From contig CAJWAE010000012.1 in the NCBI GenBank assembly GCA_913020075.1, positions 1 to 36,494 on the forward strand: DNA of 36,494 nt, written 5' to 3'. Source of the stretch: an uncultured Flavobacteriaceae bacterium (GTDB lineage: Bacteria; Bacteroidota; Bacteroidia; Flavobacteriales; Flavobacteriaceae). A program made the position numbers and the translations under genes. A model generated the notes under the pieces. That model ran no database searches. It saw nothing but the letters and a program-made list of their open reading frames with translations, and was not told the origin of the DNA. Positions 10,437 to 36,494 of this stretch are shown here, in pieces; the first letter of the stretch is position 1; each line of letters opens with the position of its first letter.

Positions 10437-11135
10437 ATGAAATCTTTTTCAAGAATAATTTCAGGAACCATGACTTGGGGTCAGTGGGGAAAAAAATATA
10501 CACCTTATGAAATCCAATCTCTGATTGAACAGACTGTCTATTTAGGAATAAACACCTTTGATCATGCAGATATTTACGGAGGATATACAACCGAAGCTGA
10601 TTTTGGATCTGGCTTTAAAATTAGCTCTGTAAGTCGTGAATCTGTTTATTTTATTTCAAAGTGTGGAATTCAATTTCCCTGTGACCAACGTCCGTTAAAC
10701 GTAAAGCATTATGATTATTCTGCCAAGCATTTAAGGATGAGTGTTGAAAATTCATTGAAAAAATTGCAGACTGATTACATAGATGTACTGCTTCTTCATA
10801 GACCAAGCCCTCTAATGGAGTCAGAAACTATATTAAAAGTGGTTCAAGAGCTTCAAGTCGAGGGTAAGATAAAAGATCTAGGAGTATCAAATTTTACAGC
10901 TTCTCAAATGAGTTTGTTTCAACAAGAGGTTCCCCTGTCTTGGAATCAATTGGAATGTTCACTAACGAACGAATCACCAATGTTTGACGGAACATTAGAT
11001 CATATGAAAATTAATAATGTTGGAGCAATGGCATGGAGCCCCCTAGGCAGTTACTTTAAAGAAAAATCTCCTCAAAACAAGCGTATAAAAGGAGTAATGA
11101 ATGATCTTAGTCGAAAATATAATTGTTCTTGGTAA
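10437..11135 (+). pseudogene. Aldo/keto reductase (YdhF-like) lacking its C-terminus
   Basis: The frame encodes 232 residues of an NADPH-dependent aldo/keto reductase. The catalytic tetrad is visible: D42 and Y47 in F-D-H-A-D-I-Y, K75 in Y-F-I-S-K and H121 in L-L-L-H-R-P. The W-S-P-L-G sequence of the cofactor side follows near residue 206. Homology continues to K-Y-N-C-S at about residue 231. A Trp codon and TAA come next instead of the D-Q-L-L-L-A-W helix and remaining ~55 residues expected for the family. The lost part includes much of the cofactor-binding end, so activity is doubtful. Directly after the break, in another frame, comes the C-terminus of PyrE, so the gene was cut by a deletion or a misassembly, not by a simple point mutation. 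Confidence 0.8.
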
Positions 11136-11385
11136 AAGTAGTTTAAATGCTGTTATAGCTCTTAAAGAGGCTGGTGCAAGAGTTTTAGGTATGAAAGCAT
11201 TATTCACTTACGGATTTGAAATTTCAAATGTTGCTTTTAAAAATGCAGATATTAAATTACAAACACTTTGTGATTATCAACACTTATTGACTGTGGCATT
11301 AAATCAAGGGAAAATATCTAAAAAACAAGCTGAAAATTTGCAGGTTTGGCGTAAAAATCCCATCGAGTGGTCTCCTAGTCATTAG
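11131..11385 (+). pseudogene. pyrE: C-terminal fragment of orotate phosphoribosyltransferase
   Basis: From G-K-S-S-L-N-A-V onward this frame matches the last ~85 residues of bacteroidotal PyrE: A-L-K-E-A-G-A-R-V-L-G-M, then F-T-Y-G-F, then the C-terminal W-R-K-N-P-I-E-W. The preceding ~130 residues, including the orotate site and the core of the PRPP loop (normally E-D-L-I-S-T-G-K-S-S), are missing. Just before the break the frame reads V-E-N-I-I-V-L-G-K, which only partly resembles the loop. The nearest in-frame ATG is at 11101, inside the aldo/keto reductase. A 94-residue product from it would lack catalysis. The 3' end overlaps biotin ligase by 11 bases on the opposite strand. PyrE makes OMP in pyrimidine synthesis; an intact copy is not in this window. 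Confidence 0.8.
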
Positions 11386-12560: not shown

Positions 12561-14573
12561 ATGAAAGAAGATAAAAAACCAACCACTCCTAAATTTAATA
12601 TTTACTGGCTTTACGGTGCAATCGTTTTTGCTTTGTTAGGAATGAGTCTTTTCGGGGGGAGTGAATCCTGGCAATCAATAAGTAAAACAAATATATCCAA
12701 CTTTGAAAAATACTTGAATGCCGGTGATGTCAGTGAAGTAACTGTTATTCGAAACCAAAGCAGTGTCCGTGTTTCGATTTCACCTGATGCACTTACTAAG
12801 AGTGAACATGAAGGGGTAAACTCTAAAAATATTTTAGGTCAGGAAAATACACAAGGTCCACATTATCAATTTGAAGTTGGGAGTTTAGAGCTTTTTGAAG
12901 AAAAACTTGAAAAAGCAAGAAATAATGGCATTTCTTTCCGATTGGAATTTATTACAATAGAGAATAGATGGGTTGATGCCCTCATTGGATTTTTACCAAT
13001 TATAATCATTATTGGAGTATGGATTTTTATAATGCGAAGAATGTCAGGTGGTGCAGGTGGTGGTGCAGGTGGACAAATTTTTAATATTGGAAAATCTAAA
13101 GCAAAATTATATGATAAAGATGTAGATGTTAAAGTAACATTTAAAGATGTTGCCGGTCTTGAAGGTGCGAAAGAAGAAATTCAAGAAATTGTAGATTTTT
13201 TAAAAAACCCAACAAAATATACCGTTTTAGGAGGAAAAATTCCTAAAGGCGCACTATTAGTTGGTTCCCCTGGCACAGGTAAAACACTACTCGCAAAGGC
13301 AGTCGCTGGTGAAGCAAAAGTTCCTTTTTTCTCACTGTCTGGATCTGATTTTGTAGAGATGTTTGTGGGAGTTGGTGCATCACGAGTTAGGGATTTGTTT
13401 AAACAAGCTAAAGACAAATCACCTTCTATCATTTTTATTGATGAAATAGATGCGATCGGAAGAGCTCGTGGTAAAAGTAATATGACAGGATCTAACGATG
13501 AACGTGAAAATACCTTAAATCAGCTGCTTACAGAAATGGATGGGTTTGGAACAAACACTAATGTTATCATAATTGCAGCTACAAACCGAGCTGATGTTTT
13601 AGATAAAGCTTTGATGAGAGCAGGACGTTTTGACAGACAAATATATGTTGATCTTCCTGATTTAAATGAACGTCGTGAAATCTTCAAAGTACACTTAAAG
13701 CCTATTAAAGCTATAAAATCTTTAGATGTTGATTTTCTTGCCAAACAAACTCCTGGTTTTTCTGGAGCTGACATTGCGAATGTATGTAATGAAGCTGCTT
13801 TGATTGCCGCAAGAAAAAATAAAAAAGCAGTCGGAAAAGAAGATTTCTTAAATGCTGTAGATCGAATTGTAGGTGGATTAGAAAAGAAAAATAAAATTAT
13901 TACTCCTGAGGAAAAGAAAACTATTGCATACCATGAAGCAGGTCATGCCATTGTAAGTTGGTTATTAGAACATGCTGCTCCTCTTGTTAAAGTTACCATA
14001 GTTCCCAGAGGACAATCTTTAGGTGCTGCCTGGTATCTTCCTGAAGAACGTCAAATTGTTCGCACAGAACAGATGTTAGATGAAATGTGTGCTGCACTAG
14101 GAGGACGTGCTGCGGAGAGAGTTATTTTTGATAAAATATCAACTGGAGCATTAAGTGATTTAGAAAAAGTTACTCGTCAAGCTAGGGCTATGGTATCAGT
14201 TTATGGATTAAATGATAAAATTGGAAATATTACATATTATGATTCTTCAGGTCAAGCGGAATATAATTTTACAAAACCTTACTCTGAGGATACTGCTAAA
14301 AAAATTGATTACGAAATTTCACAGATTATAGAAAAGCAATATAACCGAGCTTTAGACATTTTAAATTCTTCAAAAGATAAATTAACACAACTTGCTGACA
14401 GACTTTTAGAAAAAGAAGTTATTTTTAAGGATGATTTAGAAAACATTCTGGGGAAAAGACCTTTTAAAACTAACGAAGAAAAAATTCAAGCAGCAAAAGC
14501 AACAAAGGCAACAAAGGCTACAAAGGCTACAAAGGCTACAAAGGCTACAAAGGCAGTAAAAGTGAAAAAGTAA
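12561..14573 (+). CDS. ftsH: ATP-dependent zinc metalloprotease FtsH
   Basis: A 670-residue membrane-bound AAA+ protease that degrades membrane and regulatory proteins. Membrane helices are at about 15-32 and 140-157, enclosing a periplasmic domain. Then come the AAA module with Walker A G-S-P-G-T-G-K-T (235-242), Walker B I-I-F-I-D-E-I-D (290-297), the R-A-G-R-F-D-R arginine-finger region, and the zinc site H-E-A-G-H at 458-462. Two points are unusual. The second P-loop residue is Ser where most FtsH have Pro. The C-terminus ends in six A-T-K repeats and a lysine-rich tail encoded by a 9-base tandem repeat. It sits 6 bases after rsfS in the conserved flavobacterial order. Confidence 0.96.
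14499..14552 (+). repeat. Six 9-base tandem repeats in the ftsH 3' end
   Basis: Six consecutive copies of GC(A/T)ACAAAG, four identical (GCTACAAAG) and two with A at position 3, encode A-T-K six times just before the FtsH stop codon. The copies are near-identical at DNA level, which points to recent slippage and predicts length variation between strains. Confidence 0.9.
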
Positions 14574-31479: not shown

Positions 31480-32775
31480 TTAACCTCCAAAATCATCGAA
31501 ACGAACATTTTCTGGTGGGACTCCAAAATCTTCTGCCATCCTTTCTATGGCCTGATTCATTAATGGAGGTCCACAAAAATAGACTTCGATATCTTCTGGT
31601 GTATCATGATGATCTAAGTAATTATCAATAACCACTTGATGCACAAAACCAGTAAAACCATCTCCTTTTCCTTCAAGACCTTGCTTAACTTTCCAGTTGT
31701 CTTCTTCCATCGGTTCAGACAAAGCAATATAAAATTTAAAATTAGGAAAATCTTTTTCTAAGGCTCTAAAGTGATCTATGTAGAATAATTCTCTTTTTGA
31801 TCTTCCTCCGTACCAAAAAGTAACTTTACGACCAGTTTGAAGTGTTCTAAACAATTCATATAAATGAGAACGCATAGGAGCCATTCCAGCTCCACCCCCT
31901 ACATACAACATCTCAGAATCGGATTCATTAATGAAGAATTCTCCGTAAGGACCTGATATAGTCACTTTATCACCTGCTTTTTTAGAAAAAATATAAGAAG
32001 AAGCTACTCCTGGATTAATATCACTCCACCCATTTTTAACACGATCAAATGGAGGGGTAGCAATACGAACATTCAACATGATTTCTTTTCCTTCAGCAGG
32101 GAATGAAGCCATTGAATAGGCACGTTCTACAGTTTCTGGATTTTTCATTGTTAGTGGCCATAATCCGAACTTATCCCACTCTAATTTAAATTTATCAAGT
32201 TCTCCTGGATGTTCTTCTGGATGTGCAGAAATATCAATATCCTCAAACTTAATTTCACATTCTGGAATTTCAATCTGAATATATCCACCTGCCTTATAAT
32301 CCATTTCCTCAGGAATTTTTATAACAAATTCCTTTATGAAAGAAGCTACATTCCAATTACGAAGAACGATAGCTTCAAATTTTTTAATCCCAAACACCTC
32401 TTCTGGTACTTGAATCACCATATTTTCTTTTACTTTTACTTGACAACCTAAGCGCCATCCCTCAGCAACTTCTTTTCGTGAAAAATGTGGTGCTTCAGTA
32501 GGGAGAATTTCACCTCCACCTTCAATCACTTGACATTTACACTGAATACATGTGCCACCTCCTCCACAAGCTGAGGGTAAAAAAATTTTATTACTTCCTA
32601 GAGTACTAAGTAAAGTATTCCCAGAAGAAACTTCAACTTTATTATCCCCATTAATAAGTAAGGAAACAGGCCCTGAGGGTAATAGTTTAGCTTTTACACC
32701 TAAAAGCATTCCTACTAATAAAAAAGTAATAATTAAAAAAACAATAATACTTGCTAAGACAACTGAATAATCCAT
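31480..32775 (-). CDS. nqrF: Na+-translocating NADH:quinone reductase subunit F
   Basis: NADH-oxidising entry subunit of the Na+ pump. Its 431 residues comprise an N-terminal membrane anchor (about 5-27) and a ferredoxin domain with [2Fe-2S] cysteines C70, C76, C79 and C111. The FAD/NADH reductase domain follows with R-A-Y-S-M-A-S (FAD), V-G-G-G-A-G-M-A-P-M-R-S-H (NADH) and C-G-P-P-L-M-N-Q. The canonical end F-D-D-F-G-G is intact. It is the last gene of the nqr operon, 7 bases after nqrE. Confidence 0.97.
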   Translation of the reverse strand: MDYSVVLASIIVFLIITFLLVGMLLGVKAKLLPSGPVSLLINGDNKVEVSSGNTLLSTLGSNKIFLPSACGGGGTCIQCKCQVIEGGGEILPTEAPHFSRKEVAEGWRLGCQVKVKENMVIQVPEEVFGIKKFEAIVLRNWNVASFIKEFVIKIPEEMDYKAGGYIQIEIPECEIKFEDIDISAHPEEHPGELDKFKLEWDKFGLWPLTMKNPETVERAYSMASFPAEGKEIMLNVRIATPPFDRVKNGWSDINPGVASSYIFSKKAGDKVTISGPYGEFFINESDSEMLYVGGGAGMAPMRSHLYELFRTLQTGRKVTFWYGGRSKRELFYIDHFRALEKDFPNFKFYIALSEPMEEDNWKVKQGLEGKGDGFTGFVHQVVIDNYLDHHDTPEDIEVYFCGPPLMNQAIERMAEDFGVPPENVRFDDFGG

Positions 32776-32782
32776 TCTTAAA

Positions 32783-33400
32783 TTATATTTTAATTCCCAT
32801 AAAACTCATAAATCCTAATGCCATCAAACCGGTAATGATAAAGGTAATTCCTAAACCACGTAACGGTGCCGGTACGTTAGAATATGTTATTTTTTCTCTT
32901 ATTGCAGCAATAGCTACAATTGCTAGTAACCATCCAATTCCTGAACCCAATCCATAAACTGCTGATTCAACAATACCCGAAAAATCTTTTTGTTGCATAA
33001 ACAGTGATCCCCCTAAAATAGCACAGTTTACAGCAATAAGTGGTAAAAAAATTCCTAATGCTCCATAAAGTGCAGGAGCAAATTTTTCAACTATCATTTC
33101 TACTAGTTGGACCATAGAAGCAATCACAGCAATAAACATTATAAAGCTTAAAAAACTTAAATCAAGATCTGCATATCTGGGGCTTAACCAGGCTAATGCT
33201 CCTGAATCTAATAAATATGTGTCCAATAAAAAATTAATGGGCACAGTAATAGCTAAAACAAAAATGACAGCAAAGCCTAATCCTACCGCTGTTTTAACAG
33301 TTTTTGAAACTGCTAAATAAGAACACATACCCAAGAAGTAGGCAAAAATCATATTCTCAATAAATATACTTTTAACAAATAAGTTTAAATATCCTTCCAT
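32783..33400 (-). CDS. nqrE: Na+-translocating NADH:quinone reductase subunit E
   Basis: Integral membrane subunit with about six helices. With the start at 33400 ([10 protein letters not shown]) it has 205 residues, and the two cysteines that help hold the intramembrane iron centre fall at C26 (L-G-M-C-S) and C126 (V-N-C-A-I-L-G-G). C26 agrees with the position in the Vibrio cholerae subunit. The longer frame from 33424 would overlap nqrD and shift these positions by eight, so I reject it. The gap to nqrD is then 10 bases. Confidence 0.95.
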
Positions 33401-33410
33401 GGTATTAATA

Positions 33411-34106
33411 TTAATTTTTTTCAATTAATGTTCGATTACGCGAACGTTGAATCCAAATTAGAATCCCTACCGTAATTAGAGCCATTGGTGAAAGTAACAT
33501 CAACCCGTTATTTACGTATCCCATTTCATAAATAACATCTGGAATCACTTGGAAACCAAAAAGTTTTCCTGATCCTAAAAGCTCGCGAAAAAATGCAACA
33601 ATTACTAAAATTAATCCATAGCCTGCAGCATTCCCAATTCCATCTAAAAAAGACCTCCAAACACCATTCCCTAGTGCAAAAGCTTCAAGACGTCCCATAA
33701 CTATACAATTGGTGATAATCAATCCGATAAATATTGAGAGTTCTTTACTTACATCATAAGCATATGCCCGTAATACTTGATCTACCAAAATAACCATTGC
33801 AGCAACAACAACTAATTGAACAATAATTCGAATTCGATTAGGTATTAAGTCTCTTAATAAAGAAATGATCACATTGCTTGCTGCCATAACCACCATTACT
33901 GATACGCTCATTACCAAGGCTGGCTTTAATTGAACCGTAATCGCTAAAGCTGAACATATCCCTAAAACCTGAACAGTAATAGGATTATTATCATCCATAG
34001 GATCATATAATAACTTCCGGTTTTTTTTAGAAAAAAGAGGTTCTTTTTCTTTATTTACAAAAAGAATCATCGGTGTTTTATCAATATTAGATTGATTTTT
34101 TTTCAT
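33411..34106 (-). CDS. nqrD: Na+-translocating NADH:quinone reductase subunit D
   Basis: A 231-residue membrane subunit with about six helices, paralogous to NqrE. The iron-centre cysteines are C51 (L-G-I-C-S-A-L-A) and C134 (T-N-C-I-V-M-G-R). Their spacing of 83 equals that of the Vibrio subunit. Compared with Vibrio NqrD the N-terminus is about 22 residues longer, including [13 protein letters not shown], which suits Bacteroidota homologues. The first residues could be an over-extension, since M13 is an alternative start. It begins 4 bases after nqrC. Confidence 0.95.
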
Positions 34107-34110
34107 CAGT

Positions 34111-34735
34111 TTATTCGTTAGAAACTATCGCAGTGGTTGTATCGGATTTGAAATAAGGTAAATAATGGGTCAAACGTTCAATAATCATTTCTGTAACACC
34201 ATCGCCTGTAATTGTTGCACCTGATATGGCATCTACTTCATGATCGTCTTTATCAGTGTCTTTTGGATCATTATTCGTTTTAGAAACATTGATCCCTACT
34301 AAATTTCCTTGAATATCGAAAACTTTTTCTCCCACAAAACGATCTTGAAACCATTGCTGGGTAATTTCTGCTCCCAAACCTGCAGTCTCTCCTTTGTGAT
34401 CAAAAACAGCTCCTTGTATGGTGTTTATATCATCCTTCAAAGCAATATATCCCCATATTGCATCCCATAGTCCGGCACCTTGAAGAGGCACAATATAAAA
34501 CTTAGAACTATCTACTGTAGCCTCATATAAAGGAAATCTTTGTTCAGATACAGGTTTTTTGAGTTCGGTATTCAAATTAATTTTAAAAGCATCTATATTT
34601 TTATCTATGCCTCCTGAAGTAGTTAGGGAAATTTCAGAAGTGATGTATTTATTATATAACTTCTCTGCCTTTTCTCGATCGGTTTCAACTCCAATTGTAG
34701 CTAGAATATTTTGCATTTTTTCCTTTCTTACATTA
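34111..34735 (-). CDS. nqrC: Na+-translocating NADH:quinone reductase subunit C, 5' end missing at a chimeric junction
   Basis: FMN-bearing periplasmic subunit. About 208 native residues remain, from N-V-R-K-E-K-M-Q-N-I-L-A-T-I-G-V to the stop. The flavinylation motif is D-A-I-S-G-A-T-I-T; the Thr of SGAT should carry FMN attached by ApbE. G-A-G-L-W-D-A-I-W-G-Y and G-L-G-A-E-I-T-Q-Q-W-F are family blocks. The N-terminal membrane helix and ~40 residues are missing. The reading frame runs on to 35805 without a stop, but that part is translated from eukaryotic-looking DNA on the wrong strand and is not NqrC. nqrA and nqrB, expected upstream, are absent for the same reason. Confidence 0.93.
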
Positions 34736-34750
34736 CTTCTCTTTTCTCTA

Positions 34751-36494
34751 CTCTCAACAGAATCGGGTGCCATTGTCCTGGGTGGTGGTTCTACCGCTGT
34801 CCAAGTCCCCAAGGGTTCGCACATCACTTGCACTGGCGTCGACAACACCTGCGACAACTTTGCCGCGTGTCCAGCTGGTTGGTATGGAGGTGATCCACCA
34901 ACGAAGACTTGCTCTCCATGTGATGCTGGCCAGACGTCGTTTCCCGGTGCCGTCTCGTGCAACGAATGCGAGAGAGGAAAGTTCGCTGCCACCAGCAACG
35001 AACCCTCGTGCAAAGCCTGCGACAAGACCATGAACGAGTACGCCGACGTTACTGGCTTGAAGGAGTGCAAGCTTTGTCCTGCTGGATGGCTGTCCACAGG
35101 TACAGAGGCTTGCGTTGCGATGGGTCTTGACGCGACGCTGCCCATTCCCACATCCTTGTCGATCAAACGAGGCGAAACATGGAGCGAGCTGATCGTCGAA
35201 TGGGACTTGGAGGACACGTCGTACGAAGAGTTTGTGATTCGAATTAGCACGTCGGAGGAGTTCACTCGGGACACGACTGAGCAATATGTTACTAAATCCA
35301 AGGGAGGAGGAGGAGCAGCAGGAGGAGGAGGAAGGAGGAGGAGAATGTCACTGCCCACGCTGGGTTCCACGGATCTTCGATTCGTCGTCCACTTTGCGCG
35401 GATCCAAACGCTGGCACCTGACGGCGTCCGCCTTGGTAAAGAGAGCGCGACGTCAAGAGGATGGAGAAGCATTGGTGGGAAGGACTGCTTTGCCTCGACC
35501 GAGTACCTGAACGCAACGGGATCGGTGGCACCCTCTGAGTGGGAGTGTGCGCCCTGTCCTGCGGGTGCCGACTGTCGCAGCTCCTTGATTGCCGAGGAGA
35601 TCAAAGCTAAGTTTGGTTGGTGGCGCTGCCACGGCTCTCTGACCTTTGCATCGTGCCTTGGCGCGGCTTGTCTCGGTGGTCCGAATCCTCTGCTCGCAGG
35701 AAAGTACTTTCGCTCCACTGTCAACAGCACGGGAGCAGCAGACCCTGACGACAACGGACTGGCTGGCAGCGATGCCGTGGATCTCGCCTTGGTCGACTCA
35801 GTCAACGAGACCTGTGCTCAGGGACACGCCAATCCGCCGATCAACAACACGCGATGCTCTTCTTGCGCTGTTAACTACGCTCTCTCCGGTGACGGCTCTG
35901 GTCGTTGCGTCGAGTGTGGTGGTGCTGGTGGCTCGATGGCTCTCTTTTTGCTCACTGTCTTGGGTGTCGTGGTTCTGTTCGTGCTCTTGATCGCTGTGAA
36001 AATGAGATCGACAGGTAAGAAAAAGGCCGAGCACAGTACCATGAAGAGAATCCTTCTTACGCATCTCCAGATGATTTCAATCGTTCTTTCTCTCAACGTC
36101 AGCTGGCCGACTACCGTCAGCACAGTTTTGTCACTTGCCTCCAGTCTGACCTCGATCTCAGCCCAGGCTGCATCCATCCAGTGCAGCTTTGGTGATGATC
36201 AATCGAGCAACGCTGAAGTCTACTACGGAATGTTAATTGCCACAGCTCTCCTTCCTCTCGTCCTCATGTGCGTCACGACTGTCTTCTGGTTCGTCCTCCT
36301 GCCTCTAGTGGGAATGCACAAGTGCTTGACATGCGGAAAAAAAATTGTGTACCAGCCATGTATTCCTACAAAAAATCCATTCAGACGTCGTAAAAAGAAA
36401 AAGAAGCCGACGAGAAGCGAGAGATTGCCGACTCTAATTCGAAGTGGTGGTGGTGGTGGTGGTGGTGGTAGTAGTAGCAGCAGCACCACCACGC
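34751..36494 (+). CDS. Fragment of a eukaryotic Cys-rich multi-span membrane protein (ephrin-receptor-like/GCC2-GCC3 repeats)
   Basis: An uninterrupted frame of 581 codons, open at both ends. The N-terminal ~110 residues carry Cys-rich repeats of the type C-P-A-G-W-Y-G and C-x-x-C-D-A-G-Q-T-S-F-P-G-A-x-S-C. A second Cys-rich part (about 260-390) has P-C-P-A-G-A-D-C, F-G-W-W-R-C-H-G and A-A-C-L-G-G-P-N, a pattern I know from large stramenopile-type receptor-like proteins. N-x-S/T sites (N-A-T, N-S-T, N-E-T, N-N-T) suit an extracellular domain. A strong membrane helix at about 395-418, hydrophobic stretches to ~480, another helix pair at ~490-521 and a basic, then Gly/Ser/Thr-rich tail follow. 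The start is not present; an acceptor-like CTCTCAACAG at 34751-34760 could mark an exon start at 34761. The host is not identified. Confidence 0.7.
35303..35344 (+). repeat. GGA/GCA/AGG triplet tract in the eukaryotic frame
   Basis: A 42-base purine-rich run of triplets (GGA x4, GCA x2, GGA x4, AGG x3, AGA) inserted in frame. It encodes Gly4-Ala2-Gly4-Arg4 within an otherwise ordinary extracellular domain. Such in-frame triplet expansion is usual in eukaryotic coding DNA and unlike the rest of the window. Confidence 0.85.
36446..36493 (+). repeat. GGT/AGT/AGC/ACC triplet microsatellite at the right edge
   Basis: Eight GGT triplets (36446-36469) followed by AGT x2, AGC x3, ACC x3 and ACG, encoding poly-Gly, poly-Ser and poly-Thr in the same frame. 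It abuts the window end, where assemblies often break at simple repeats. Confidence 0.85.

Follow-up and report, generated by a model that had tools for sequence, protein, structure and literature searches.

The 36,494-bp window analyzed here is the whole of contig C12 of a draft flavobacterial genome (102 contigs, 1.70 Mb, completeness 85.58%, contamination 3.49%), and near its right end the gene nqrC gives way, at 34734/34735, to unrelated DNA. This join almost certainly arose artificially, either during assembly or when DNA was amplified beforehand. The homology to nqrC breaks off inside the gene, the operon interrupted at this point is intact in relatives, the contig on the other side of the gap (C5) also ends in foreign DNA, and a further contig of the same genome (C13) does so as well.

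The bacterial side of the join is well defined. On its minus strand, C12 carries nqrF, nqrE, nqrD, and most of nqrC. The first of these (31480–32775), found in one copy in the genome, has NAD_binding_1, Fer2, and FAD_binding_6 domains above cut-off, while nqrE (32783–33424) and nqrD (33411–34106) both match Rnf-Nqr (PF02508; E = 1.3e-57 and 5.9e-56, respectively) and are named from their positions in the operon. The remaining gene, nqrC (34111–34734), is assigned by homology to 80 named loci, by a match to FMN_bind (PF04205, E = 1.5e-16), and by a score above the cut-off of TIGR01938 (152.8 bits against 144) over profile positions 40–250 of 251. Like other proteins of that family, subunit C of the Na+-translocating NADH:quinone reductase, it lies among conserved operon neighbors; unlike them, it lacks about 37 N-terminal residues, by comparison with same-genus relatives, and the loss falls at the join. 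With the TIGR01938 match beginning only at profile position 40, the complete N-terminal membrane helix is absent. The relatives used for comparison come from records that mostly belong to uncultured Flavobacteriaceae and Bacteroidetes, 377 nqrC loci being confirmed and the 80 named ones kept. The gene was found in 17 of 21 genomes searched, counting our own, and 11 of the 12 other same-genus genomes have it; an nqrC match was not found in the same-genus genome G010, which is 68% complete. Elsewhere on C12, two features of the plus strand deserve mention in their own right: a frame that we take from its sequence to be FtsH-like (12561–14573) has a C-terminal tail of repeated Lys-Ala-Thr units (14470–14573), and two overlapping frames (10437–11135 and 11101–11385), presumably of the aldo/keto reductase family, resemble a single frameshifted gene (10437–11385).

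An earlier sequence-only reading of this DNA held that NqrC homology ends at an N-V-R-K-E-K block and that GC-rich DNA with a Cys-rich frame on the opposite strand follows just beyond it. Both observations were correct, and the join can be placed at 34734/34735. When C12 was compared by blastn with a set of loci that contains the same genome more than once, 90 alignments extended beyond 34600, and 88 of these stopped at 34725–34735, with the other two stopping at 34740 and 34744. A codon-level comparison agrees. The N-V-R-K-E-K block is common to C12, the 80 named loci, and C5, with slight variation in some loci (N-I-R or K-E-Q, for example), and upstream of it C12 matches some relatives at one Ser only, which immediately precedes the N. 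In all 80 named loci, 33 or more open codons, a Met among them, precede the block in frame, no more than 250 bp upstream lies the end of the NqrB match, and nqrB directly adjoins nqrC. The minus-strand frame of C12 is open upstream of the block for 361 codons, and apart from the one Ser it is unlike nqrC; a 564-aa frame (34111–35805), which spans nqrC and the foreign part, was taken as fortuitous.

Composition changes at the same place. GC content rises from 0.32–0.35 to 0.55–0.59 across the join, with a change-point at 34750 and near ties from 34735 to 34763. Third-position GC is 0.585 in the foreign frame compared with 0.19–0.23 in nqrC-F and valS, and the observed/expected ratio of CpG is 0.94 in the foreign part against 0.61 in the bacterial part. 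No k-mer shared between the two sides of the join was identified. The contig runs through the join without a break, which would fit a real bacterial border, with the nqr operon ending here beside a gene that is genuinely bacterial but unusual in composition. We give this reading hardly any credence, since nqrC is truncated within its coding sequence, all three compositional measures change, and the foreign frame has no further match in its own genome.

The 25 bases that follow the nqrC homology (34736–34760, plus strand) read cttctcttttctctactctcaacag, a pyrimidine tract in which 17 of 20 bases before a CAG (34758–34760) are pyrimidines. This resembles a spliceosomal 3' splice site and lies immediately before the GC-rich coding stretch. 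Equally good sites occur 14 times on the plus strand and 13 times on the minus strand of the whole of C12, or roughly once per 2.6 kb and strand, and the occurrence of one at the join by chance is therefore unlikely. Because this tract directly precedes the GC-rich stretch, the foreign DNA probably begins at about 34735 with the putative intron end of a foreign gene, and the step in GC is likely to be an intron/exon border some 25 bases beyond that start.

The foreign tail makes up the last 1.73 kb of C12 (GC 0.55). Its plus-strand frame (34757–36493) runs for 579 codons with no stop up to the contig end, and we describe the part from 34761 to 36494 as a eukaryote-like coding fragment in which Cys-rich modules are followed by hydrophobic stretches. 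The contig ends inside a GGT-type simple repeat (36446–36494, plus strand), visible in the sequence and in matches to GC-rich patterns at 36446–36468. The sequence-only reading had called this a Cys-rich receptor frame; the richness in Cys stands, and for the receptor label there is a weak match to Ephrin_rec_like (PF07699), which reaches 15.5 bits (E = 0.015), below the Pfam cut-off of 23.1. The frame may be likened to the Cys-rich Ephrin_rec_like membrane proteins of algae and protists. As in these proteins, C-x2-C modules recur and long helices are predicted after them (residues 391–526 of a structural model), but the frame differs in falling under the curated cut-off, and the confidence of the model (mean pLDDT 46.2) is too low for a fold comparison.

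A eukaryotic source for this piece is the best reading of these features and a likely one. It is also conceivable, though we consider it doubtful, that the contig is chimeric and the foreign piece comes instead from a prokaryote or a large virus. The Ephrin_rec_like match below cut-off leaves room for such a source, as do matches in other genomes of the phylum: a search of 395 same-phylum genomes with the foreign frame matched four, namely our own and three weak ones (E = 9.6e-7 at residues 36–119; 6.9e-6 at 36–116; 6.2e-4 at 50–209, with four stops), two of the three being restricted to the Cys-rich stretch. Moreover, the foreign end of C5 is bacterial, and the GC-rich left end of C35 encodes an unassigned protein. 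Against this, no relative of the frame was confirmed in IMG/VR contigs, phages, plasmids, PHROGs, or NCBIfam, nor by peptide patterns in GTDB contigs, with the proviso that pattern scans detect close relatives only; and the splice-acceptor-like tract, the simple-repeat coding stretches, and a deubiquitinase fragment on C13 also weigh against such a source. With no matches, or only weak ones, in these collections and in the genomes of the phylum, a phage, plasmid, viral, or prokaryotic origin was set aside. Searching PDB sequences for the foreign frame gave E values of 0.48 or worse, and Rfam at gathering scores returned no hit in C12 or in four stretches from contig ends.

The sole nqrB found in the genome is near the end of C5, where it is followed by the start of an nqrC, and the last 417 bp of that nqrC piece overlap the nqrC of C12 with 71% DNA identity. 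Comparison of the last 1,917 bp of C5 (L002) with two relatives gives opposite trends along its length. Identity to L033, a record labeled FRAM_WSC20, is 75.7% over positions 1–1211, 100% over 1212–1281, and 98.1% over 1282–1917, whereas identity to L048 over the same three segments is 82.3%, 85.7%, and 72.5%; the two relatives are 78.4% identical to each other in the first segment and 73.4% in the last. Because identity to L033 rises while identity to L048 falls, C5 is, on this profile, switching to a different flavobacterium inside nqrB, at a stretch of 70 identical base pairs. The foreign end that begins with this stretch occupies 48390–49095 of C5 (L002:1212–1917), or about 0.64–0.7 kb. 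The relatives tell the same story: among the 10 best for the upstream part of C5 and the 10 best for nqrC-F of C12, seven are common to both (L016, L029, L034, L035, L048, L051, and L052), and none of these seven is among the 10 best of the nqrC end of C5.

Foreign DNA thus terminates both contigs that flank the nqrB–nqrC gap. Natural recombination is, in principle, another conceivable cause of the switch in C5, but it would give the genome two nqrC genes, that of C5 and that of C12. The candidate that the C5 piece is such a second true nqrC, as a paralogue or through a mixed bin, was rejected on the L033 identity profile, which places the switch inside nqrB. Short matches of 44 bp on C67 and 43 bp on C29 were also found in the genome; that on C67 was taken as chance, being missed by the NqrC protein search and lying in a frame that looks unrelated.

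A scan of the same genome for GC-rich stretches led to C13 (35,489 bp), whose last 0.73 kb or so (34757–35488; L102:2758–3489) has a GC content of 0.55–0.70 in 150-bp blocks. This end encodes a fragment of a UCH-type deubiquitinase, or ubiquitin hydrolase (PF00443, E = 2.4e-10, 40.9 bits vs 23.9), with a PDB match to USP35 (E = 3.6e-4). UCH-type deubiquitinases are mainly eukaryotic. A wider survey covered 120 of the 204 contig ends, of which six (on C100–C102) gave zero GC and were taken as unreadable. Among the 114 that remained, four reach a GC of at least 0.5 in a block of 250 bp that lies within 500 bp of the contig end: the right ends of C13 and C12 and the left ends of C35 and C23. The other 110 stay below 0.5, a point against a chimera, although this measure is blind to foreign ends of ordinary GC such as that of C5. 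In the outer 250 bp, GC is raised to 0.56 at the left end of C35 (1–520, L141) and to 0.51 at that of C23 (1–120, L129), and the left end of C17 (GC 0.48) carries a fragment of a CDP-glucose 4,6-dehydratase. We regard these three left ends as suspect or neutral and exclude them from the evidence for a chimera. GC-rich pattern matches on C14, C39, C52, C56, and C21 fall in stretches of ordinary GC, and such matches also occur on C7, C22, and C26.

Foreign DNA on other contig ends of the same genome is a main reason for preferring assembly error to gene transfer. In a real transfer, eukaryotic DNA would have inserted in nqrC and broken a sodium pump gene, and in its favor the join lies inside one contig with no run of N seen in the stretch read. 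Such an event would have removed the start and the membrane helix from nqrC and spared nqrB, D, E, and F; the insert reaches the contig end without meeting bacterial DNA again, C5 and C13 have foreign ends of the same kind, and the arrangement is intact in all 80 named relatives. We consider it very improbable. The same holds for its most specific form, in which an intron end and exon would sit in the nqrC of a flavobacterial subpopulation with a disabled sodium pump, as a fresh transfer caught before its loss; this strains belief. The sequence-only reading had favored a chimeric contig and ranked a real transfer as the less likely alternative, and that ranking is supported by the foreign ends of C5 and C13 and by the named loci, every one of which has nqrB next to nqrC and an open nqrC start.

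For the chimera, it also speaks that the foreign part reaches the contig end through the GGT repeat and that nqrC is left without a start. How the pieces came together can be proposed as follows. The bacterial sequence of C12 should run on through the first 37 or so nqrC codons into the nqrB on C5. The genuine parts of the two contigs would be separated by only about 220–290 bp in the homologous frame, and this stretch would have been left unassembled. At its broken end, C12 may have been joined to an unrelated eukaryote-like fragment of the same sample, made up of a putative intron end and an exon, and on the C5 side the contig may have passed into the nqrB–nqrC of a different flavobacterium via the identical 70 bp. 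One report (PMC8862208) states that chimeric sequences can arise when metagenomic assembly merges regions that are similar. C12 departs from that pattern in that no similar region was seen between the two sides of its join. As in chimeric contig ends of metagenome-assembled genomes, foreign DNA lies at the contig end, and in C5 the two sources meet where a conserved gene is identical between them.

Were the transfer real, it would be a striking recent insertion from a eukaryote into a bacterium. The join in C12 is not evidence for gene transfer, and it matters mainly as a caution. It also offers a check that needs no reads, which is to ask whether the contig with the adjoining gene ends in foreign DNA too; here C5, which holds the missing neighbor nqrB, stops at this very gap, its nqrB being followed by part of a foreign nqrC. 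Foreign DNA is carried by no fewer than three contig ends of this draft genome (on C5, C12, and C13), and therefore claims of gene transfer drawn from this genome should omit genes at contig ends.
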